64,000 bases of DNA from Salinibacterium sp. ZJ450 (GTDB lineage: Bacteria > Actinomycetota > Actinomycetes > Actinomycetales > Microbacteriaceae): contig NZ_CP061771.1 in the NCBI RefSeq assembly GCF_011751885.2, positions 2,914,001-2,978,000 on the forward strand, written 5' to 3'. The first letter of the stretch is position 1. Each line of letters begins with the position of its first letter. This document shows positions 9,722 to 47,268 of the stretch, in pieces. Below the pieces are notes generated by a model. That model saw nothing but the letters and a program-made list of their open reading frames with translations, had not been told where the DNA came from and did not search any database. The position numbers and the translations under genes are program-made.

Positions 9722-10078
9722 TGGCAACTCCTTGGATCAGACACAGGGCACTACCAAACTACCGGGCAGGCTAGTCGAGTGCGGGCCCAGGCGCGCGGCC
9801 ACTGAAGTGTCTATCGCTCCCCGATGGTTGCCCATCTGAACGCCAGTCGCGACCGGGTCAGTTTAGCAGGAGGCCTCCGGCCCGACGTGTCGGACGGAGT
9901 TCGGCGGCTCGGGAGGACGTTATCCGCGAAAACGTCCTCCCGAGCCGCCGTTTGCCGTCCGAGCGGCGCTGCGCACGCGGGCTGGTGCGGCTGCTGCACC
10001 ACCCCTCAACACCCAGCGGGATTCCCCACCCGCCAGCGCCTTCACTGGACAGCGGATGCCGCGGACAACACTCTCCCC
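9722..10078. other. 357-bp intergenic region upstream of glyA and of the AbiEi/DUF559 gene
   Basis: No convincing gene lies here. It contains the leader of glyA (leftward), the palindromic element at 9890-9963, and a GC-rich stretch leading to the AACACT hexamer six bases before the ATG at 10079. I looked for a folate riboswitch before glyA and saw no match to the THF-I or THF-II consensus. Confidence 0.6.
9890..9963. repeat. palindromic repeat element, copy 1
   Basis: The left arm 9890-9921 (TCGGACGG, then CGGCGGCTCGGGAGGACGTT) pairs with the right arm 9931-9963 around the loop ATCCGCGAA. Only a 4-base internal bulge (AGTT against TTTG) breaks the pairing. A second, diverged copy lies at 10913-10990, on the other side of the AbiEi/DUF559 gene. 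Confidence 0.85.
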
Positions 10079-10912
10079 ATGGATCTCACAACCTGGCTCA
10101 ACACCCGGGGCGGAATCGCTCACGTGCACGAGGCGCTGCGGGCCGGTTTCACCCGGTACGACATCAAGAAAGCAGTCGATGGCAACGCGTTGCGACGCAT
10201 CCGGAGATACTGGCTGGCGACGCCGCACGCGCAGCCTGACCTCGCGGCGGCAGCGAAGATCGGCGGCCGAGTGGCGTGCCTGAGCGTTGCGAAGCGCCTT
10301 GATCTGTGGCATTTCGACGATGGCCGGTTGCACGTGGCTGTGTCGCCGAACGCTGCGCACGTGGCATCCGGCAGTCAGGTCGTGCATTGGAGCCGGGGGC
10401 CGATCGAGGTCAGCCCGTACCGGTTGATGGAGCCGCTCGAGAACGCGATGGTGCACCTCGCCGACTGCCAGCCCTTCGAGAATGCCCTCGTTGTGTGGGA
10501 GTCCGCGATTCGCAAGCAGCTGGTCGCTCCGGCGTACCTCGAACGACTGCCGCTGCGCACCGAAAGCGCTCGGCGAGTGCGGCTGGGGGCGTCGCTGCTC
10601 TTCGACTCGGGCATCGAGAGCATCCCGGTGGCGCGCCTGAGACTGCTCGGGCTCGCCGTGCGGCAGCAGGTTGTGATCGACGGCCACCCCGTTGACGGGC
10701 TGATCGGGGAACGCCTCGTCTACCAGATCGACGGCTACGAGTTTCATTCGGATGCCGCGACCCGTCGCCGCGACATTGCGGCGGATGGCCGGTTGACACT
10801 GATGGGCTACAGCGTGCTGCGGTTCGACTACAAGCAGATCCTGTTCGACTGGGACTACGTGGAGCGGACGATTCTCGGCGCCATCGCGCAGGGTCTGCAC
10901 CTCGCGGCCTGA
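10079..10912 (+). CDS. AbiEi-like N-terminal domain / DUF559 (PD-(D/E)XK-fold) protein
   Basis: The protein has 277 residues. The N-terminal 60 residues (WLNTRGGIAHVHEALRAGFTRYDIKKAV ... LRRIRRYWLA) form the winged-helix antitoxin-like domain annotated as type IV AbiEi. The C-terminus (HPVDGLIGERLVYQIDGYEFHSDAATR.. DGRLTLMGYSVLRFDYKQIL) is a DUF559/Vsr-like nuclease fold. The usual ExD of the fold reads QID here, so catalysis is doubtful. No AbiEii toxin partner is next to it. Such solitary genes are frequent in Microbacteriaceae and their role is unknown. The gene sits exactly between two copies of a palindromic element, the second beginning one base after the stop codon. Confidence 0.8.
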   Translation: MDLTTWLNTRGGIAHVHEALRAGFTRYDIKKAVDGNALRRIRRYWLATPHAQPDLAAAAKIGGRVACLSVAKRLDLWHFDDGRLHVAVSPNAAHVASGSQVVHWSRGPIEVSPYRLMEPLENAMVHLADCQPFENALVVWESAIRKQLVAPAYLERLPLRTESARRVRLGASLLFDSGIESIPVARLRLLGLAVRQQVVIDGHPVDGLIGERLVYQIDGYEFHSDAATRRRDIAADGRLTLMGYSVLRFDYKQILFDWDYVERTILGAIAQGLHLAA

Positions 10913-10990
10913 TCTCGGACGGAGTTCGGCGGCTCGGAAGGACGGTATCCGGGAAAATCATCCTACGGAGCCGCCGATCTCCGTCCGAGC
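10913..10990. repeat. palindromic repeat element, copy 2
   Basis: This is a diverged copy of the element at 9890-9963. Shared parts are CTCGGACGGAGTTCGGCGGC at the left, the GTATCC/TTATCC loop region, and GAGCCGCCG ... CCGTCCGAGC at the right. It starts right after the TGA of the preceding gene and could act as its 3' hairpin. The following 90 bases contain a direct repeat of GCGCCGGCACCCAGA (near 11017 and 11047). Confidence 0.8.
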
Positions 10991-29464: not shown

Positions 29465-29526
29465 TTGAGCCATGTTGTCGCGCTTGAGCCACCGCGCGGT
29501 GGCTCAACCACGACAAGCTGGCTCAA
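29465..29526. repeat. 62-base imperfect palindrome
   Basis: The centre TTGAGCCACCGC|GCGGTGGCTCAA is a perfect 24-base palindrome. The outer arms TTGAGCCATGTTGTCG and CGACAAGCTGGCTCAA also pair, at 14 of 16 positions. The motif TTGAGCCA thus occurs twice per arm. Confidence 0.8.
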
Positions 29527-47228: not shown

Positions 47229-47268
47229 CGGTAGGGGTGGAAGCGAGTCCTCGCTTCCACCCCTACCG
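47229..47268. terminator. bidirectional terminator between the HNH gene and purH
   Basis: CGGTAGGGGTGGAAGCGA pairs perfectly with its complement around loop GTCC: an 18-bp stem. It has AAAA on the left side, which reads as TTTT on the minus strand, so it best serves purH. Confidence 0.85.

Follow-up and report, generated by a model that had tools for sequence, protein, structure and literature searches.

The window considered here, a stretch of 64,000 nucleotides of the Salinibacterium sp. ZJ450 genome (NZ_CP061771.1, positions 2,914,001 to 2,978,000), contains a nuclease-like gene of the DUF559 type which is bracketed by two copies of one palindrome. The features at this locus are the following.

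9778-9860, minus strand: ZMP/ZTP riboswitch (RF01750, 52.6 bits), preceding glyA; distance to palindrome copy 1 a few tens of bases
9888-9964, plus strand: palindrome copy 1 (upstream), 77 bp, 30 of 38 opposed positions complementary, fold z -9.1
10079-10912, plus strand: nuclease-like gene, 277 aa, with a DUF559 (EDxHD/Vsr-like) nuclease domain at the C-terminus and an AbiEi-like region at the N-terminus
10913-10990, plus strand: palindrome copy 2 (downstream), 78 bp, 30 of 39 opposed positions complementary, fold z -6.5
One neighbour of the DUF559 gene, minus strand: glyA (serine hydroxymethyltransferase, SHMT)
Other neighbour of the DUF559 gene, minus strand: class II glutamine amidotransferase gene

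The two palindromes are in direct orientation and 87% identical, the match being closer in the first 43 nt (93%) than in the last 46 nt (76%). Both fold far better than shuffled sequence, as seen from the z values above, and their palindrome scores of 25 and 23 compare with a maximum of 14 when the 5 kb region was simulated 40 times with a Markov-2 model. Copy 1 is located approximately 115 bp 5' of the start codon of the DUF559 gene and adjoins the riboswitch of the divergent glyA, besides which the Rfam search returned nothing over threshold. Copy 2 begins no more than 1-2 bases after the stop codon. A first-pass annotation, made from the sequence alone, had described two palindromes with shared arms around a single gene, and the pair is indeed present at the location given; the details were adjusted, as the gene itself occupies 10079-10912 and the second palindrome starts no further than 1-2 bases from its stop. 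Two other strong palindromes of different sequence are found in the window at 29465-29526 (TTGAGCCATGTTGTCGCG...) and 47229-47268 (CGGTAGGGGTGGAAGCGAG...).

The DUF559 domain (PF04480) of the window protein scores 28.8 bits against a Pfam cut-off of 20.6, whereas the AbiEi-like N-terminus gives only a weak PADLOC match (E 0.009). It is clear in some homologs, four out of 15 having an AbiEi_4 match (best E 7.5e-8). Thus, of the AbiEi/DUF559 label given in the first pass, the second half is solid and the first is weak for this protein. The E-D-x-H-D residues E180, D206, H223 and D232 are present, and the x position, which is E in most homologs, is Q216; almost every homolog retains the E, D, H and D. 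A profile of 15 homologs matches the PDB entries 3hrl and 3r3p ('Mobile intron protein'; E 5.6e-4 for 3r3p), and the latter we take to be I-Bth0305I. The AlphaFold model of the single window protein (pLDDT 38) was unusable for a fold search.

Dispersed copies and gene position

A DNA search located the window palindrome at approximately 19 intergenic sites of its own genome. The two palindromes at the DUF559 gene are copies of one dispersed repeat, and the earlier comparison to REP elements was apt. All of the further sites or clusters that were examined (16/16) are intergenic, nine being situated between convergent, six between tandem and one between divergent genes. These are lone palindromes with no cargo genes between them. 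At L054, two copies (genome positions 1533371 and 1533650) are separated by 280 bp of gene-free sequence. Where the arms vary between copies, pairing is kept somewhat better than with shuffled partners (299 vs. 276, sd 5.8). The other two DUF559 genes of this genome are without a strong palindrome pair.

Among 59 genomes, G002, a member of the same genus, has the palindrome family, whereas G001 and the other genera lack it except for two matches of 23-24 bases. G002 also has an ortholog of the gene (81% amino acid identity). It occupies the corresponding locus, its neighbours again being glyA and that glutamine amidotransferase gene, and a palindrome stands at each of the two positions, the downstream one being diverged in sequence. 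As for the dispersed copies, one palindrome of the window genome is common to G002 and three resolved copies are missing there, two of these places having unrelated palindromes. Orthologs of other bracketed DUF559 genes are likewise syntenic. At the glyA locus of G001 both the gene and the palindromes are absent, and neither a scar nor a remnant palindrome was found when that locus was inspected.

The first-pass annotation had interpreted the gene as a mobile defence cassette, that is, cargo inserted or excised by recombination of the flanking repeats. A lone antitoxin-like nuclease gene enclosed by direct repeats, and the absence of this gene in G001, would be in line with such a scenario. 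However, the orthologs retain their position and both palindromes, no locus with a single remaining palindrome was found, and elsewhere in the window genome the repeat flanks no cargo genes. Beside the window gene there is no toxin partner or defence neighbour, as the adjacent genes are glyA and the class II glutamine amidotransferase gene; a toxin-antitoxin pair or defence cargo was rejected for lack of a partner gene. Mobility of the gene as a cassette is therefore very improbable.

Palindrome pairs at related DUF559 loci

The sample of related loci comprised 40 DUF559 loci of relatives in the same family, taken from a family search, with 19 kb each (760 kb of sequence). Strong palindromes are rare in it (38 in 760 kb) and many of them lie directly beside the DUF559 gene. 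A matched pair was defined by palindrome similarity of at least 28 and spacing of 500-2500 bp. All 15 strongly matched pairs in the 760 kb bracket a DUF559 gene, including a pair at L135 which brackets a second DUF559 gene (G005:C2:1051667). Palindromes flanking unrelated genes everywhere, the outcome that the first pass had named as refuting its reading, were thus not observed, and the association of gene and palindromes pointed out in the first pass is meaningful. The control sequence (307 kb) contained no matched pairs other than the window's own and that of the G002 ortholog, the latter seen in three overlapping loci.

At the thresholds used, a matched pair is found at approximately 40% of the 40 DUF559 genes, and many DUF559 genes are without a strong pair. 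A palindrome is present upstream of seven of 29 DUF559 genes vs. nine of 426 other genes (Fisher p 1.6e-5); after the stop codon, palindromes are found at 49 of the 426 other genes too. Bracketing also appears to be present in G044 (L082) and G042 (L086), which are related more distantly, at the level of the order. The recurrence of the same kind of gene with its own palindrome in many relatives suggests an undescribed partnership of enzyme and repeat. In Microterricola pindariensis (L031, 1-240), a DUF559 relative at the contig start has an unrelated 67-bp palindrome 16 nt past its stop.

Co-divergence of gene and palindrome, and turnover of sites

The palindrome stems are wholly different between DUF559 lineages, each lineage having its own type. 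Dispersal of the bracketing palindromes was seen in three of the four genomes tested, in roughly 20-45 copies: approximately 45 sites in G008 and 20 each in G017 and G022, all approximate counts among the matches listed. One palindrome type of G005 is represented by just its two bracketing copies.

In the genus g7 (12 genomes, 12 species), the G008 palindrome is found only in G008, G060, G061 and G065. In these four, the closest homolog of the G008 nuclease has 71-100% identity, whereas in the other eight, which have no palindrome copy, the identity is at most 62%; such a coincidence has a chance of about 1 in 495 if shared ancestry is ignored. Protein identity and palindrome similarity are correlated across 54 genes (Mantel r 0.40, 0/5000 permutations), the palindrome similarity being mostly gone below 50-60% protein identity, and shared ancestry contributes to this correlation. 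The comparison of orthologs in place is more telling, since here the palindrome type switches with the gene. The syntenic orthologs of G008/G060/G061, G064 and G068 have different palindrome types at the same locus, and the gene has 71-77% nucleotide identity vs. approximately 78-91% for most of the flanking DNA. The homolog of the G008 nuclease in G059 (L214, G059:C30:92581-93264) appears broken, its middle missing and its ends matching as separate pieces.

The DUF559 gene stays in place and changes together with its palindrome, and the dispersed copies turn over. Site L179 has the palindrome in G008, G061 and G065 but not in six sister species. At one orthologous convergent site (L182/L227/L228/L231/L233), several species have palindromes of different families, as if this spot were a preferred landing place for them; the types found there in G059 and G066 resemble those beside DUF559 genes of the genus. 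Variants shared between copies within one genome (TTTGGGCCC in G008; TTCGGGCCC in G060, G061 and G065) suggest homogenisation or recent spread. No clean target-site duplication was readable at the dispersed sites, where the intergenic flanks are too diverged. In the draft assembly of G065, palindromes are found 30-140 bases from the ends of contigs C112, C133 and C142, which suggests that the palindromes break assemblies.

Could the palindromes be simply terminators or insulators, that is, functional RNA hairpins at gene ends, kept alike by gene conversion in which the DUF559 protein has no part? The hairpins are very stable, the convergent sites make up 9/16 of the dispersed sites in the window genome, the orthologous convergent site just described carries different palindromes in different species, and other genes too may be followed by a palindrome, as noted above. 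Nevertheless, a general terminator is not expected to confine its matched flanking copies to DUF559 genes, the specificity to DUF559 lineages and the position upstream of the gene do not fit, and there is no T-run 3' of the window hairpins. We consider this explanation unlikely.

Another possibility is that the protein is an autoregulator with a regulon. The AbiEi-like region would bind the palindromes as operators, the upstream copy controlling the gene itself and the dispersed copies controlling other genes, and the nuclease would be secondary. Pairs of 23-bp inverted repeats in the promoters are the binding sites of AbiEi antitoxins; AbiEi and Rv2827c, the two members tested, each bind the inverted repeats of their own promoter and did not cross-bind (PMC7319586). 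The palindromes upstream of many DUF559 genes, and the way in which palindrome sequence follows the protein, would be consistent with such regulation. It leaves unexplained, however, the matched copy after the stop and the copies between convergent genes; the copies are mostly unshared by sister species, unlike those of a maintained regulon, and the nuclease residues E, D, H and D are conserved. A purely regulatory role is in our opinion just as improbable as that of terminators.

Known systems and a proposed mechanism

In REPtrons, a single-copy, non-mobile enzyme gene is bracketed by palindromes of a kind that also occupies intergenic sites elsewhere in the genome, and the enzyme and the repeat co-evolve (PMC8266576, PMC3733652). 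The DUF559 gene, bracketed by the same palindromes that occupy the intergenic sites described above, resembles this arrangement. The enzyme, however, is an EDxHD/Vsr-like nuclease and not an HUH Y1 tyrosine transposase (TnpA_REP/RAYT), the palindromes are 55-90 bp long vs. 20-50 bp in REPtrons, and a GTAG tag common to copies or lineages was not found by inspection of the palindromes. Because enzyme class and tag differ, the system is not a REPtron by membership, though it is the closest one in its working. RAYT-driven REPs were rejected as an explanation for the repeats, since the Y1 transposase domain (PF01797) was absent in ten of these genomes and was detected in five positive control genomes.

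We find it probable that the DUF559 gene and the palindromes constitute a nuclease-repeat pair working like a REPtron. The single-copy gene would give a protein that joins the AbiEi-like DNA-binding region to the DUF559 nuclease domain and recognises the lineage-specific palindrome of 55-90 bp, probably as a dimer with one monomer per arm. Such a dimer is plausible, because AbiEi binds inverted repeats and the EDxHD enzyme I-Bth0305I is reported to act as a dimer on a target of nearly 60 bp (PMC3943268), a length near those of the palindromes found here. Cutting or nicking at palindromes could then lead to their copying or conversion into new intergenic sites, and the same activity may keep copies within a genome similar to each other. 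The gene would remain fixed between its two palindromes as dispersed copies come and go, and the specificity of protein and palindrome would shift jointly. TnpA_REP is thought to drive the copying of REPs between sites in a similar manner. Alongside such spreading, the upstream palindrome may well serve autoregulation and the downstream one termination; taken alone, these two are the chief rivals of the proposed mechanism.

The protein also resembles two other kinds of systems. With EDxHD homing endonucleases such as I-Bth0305I it shares the homologous Vsr-like nuclease domain with E, D, H and D retained and, possibly, the long dimer target. However, the surroundings of the window gene show no sign of an intron or intein, the presumed target is intact on both sides and not interrupted by the gene, and it is the target that appears to spread and the gene that is fixed. 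To AbiE type IV toxin-antitoxin systems the likeness lies in the N-terminus, where the AbiEi match is weak for the window protein and clear for some homologs; AbiEi binds paired inverted repeats in its own promoter (PMC7319586). Here, in contrast, no AbiEii nucleotidyltransferase toxin gene is adjacent, a nuclease domain takes the place of the antitoxin C-terminal domain, and palindromes are found also after the gene and genome-wide. The system is neither a toxin-antitoxin pair nor a conventional homing element. No published link between DUF559 and palindromes was found in the open-access library searched, most subscription papers and all preprints being outside the search, and the novelty of the partnership is therefore provisional. 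DUF559 is named in 14 papers of that library, of which two also mention palindromes, with nothing in title or abstract to connect the two.

If the proposed mechanism is true, an unrelated nuclease family has the same relation to palindromes as the RAYTs, and the arrangement arose more than once. DUF559 would also gain a testable substrate, as the flanks of each bracketed gene name the predicted DNA target, and the many gene-specific pairs make a ready panel for studying the joint change of a nuclease and its DNA target. More tentatively, a separate kind of palindrome-spreading system may exist in Microbacteriaceae, perhaps order-wide, in which an AbiEi-type region joined to a Vsr/EDxHD nuclease would mobilise and homogenise long palindromes without a transposase, and rapid change of specificity would repeatedly replace the palindrome families of a genome; we hold this possible, though with less conviction than the pairing itself.

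The RAYTs are the one enzyme family to which the spread of REP-like palindromes has been attributed, and for some abundant REP families no enzyme is known (PMC3733652). The CGTC-tagged REPs similarly are dispersed intergenic palindromes with no known dedicated enzyme (PMC3733652), but the CGTC tag is not common to the palindrome families described here. A DUF559-type enzyme might be the missing one for other REP families without a RAYT. Several of the present palindrome families have TTCC-N-GCGAA-like centres (47 of 88 vs. 36 expected, sd 4), an excess that is suggestive only.
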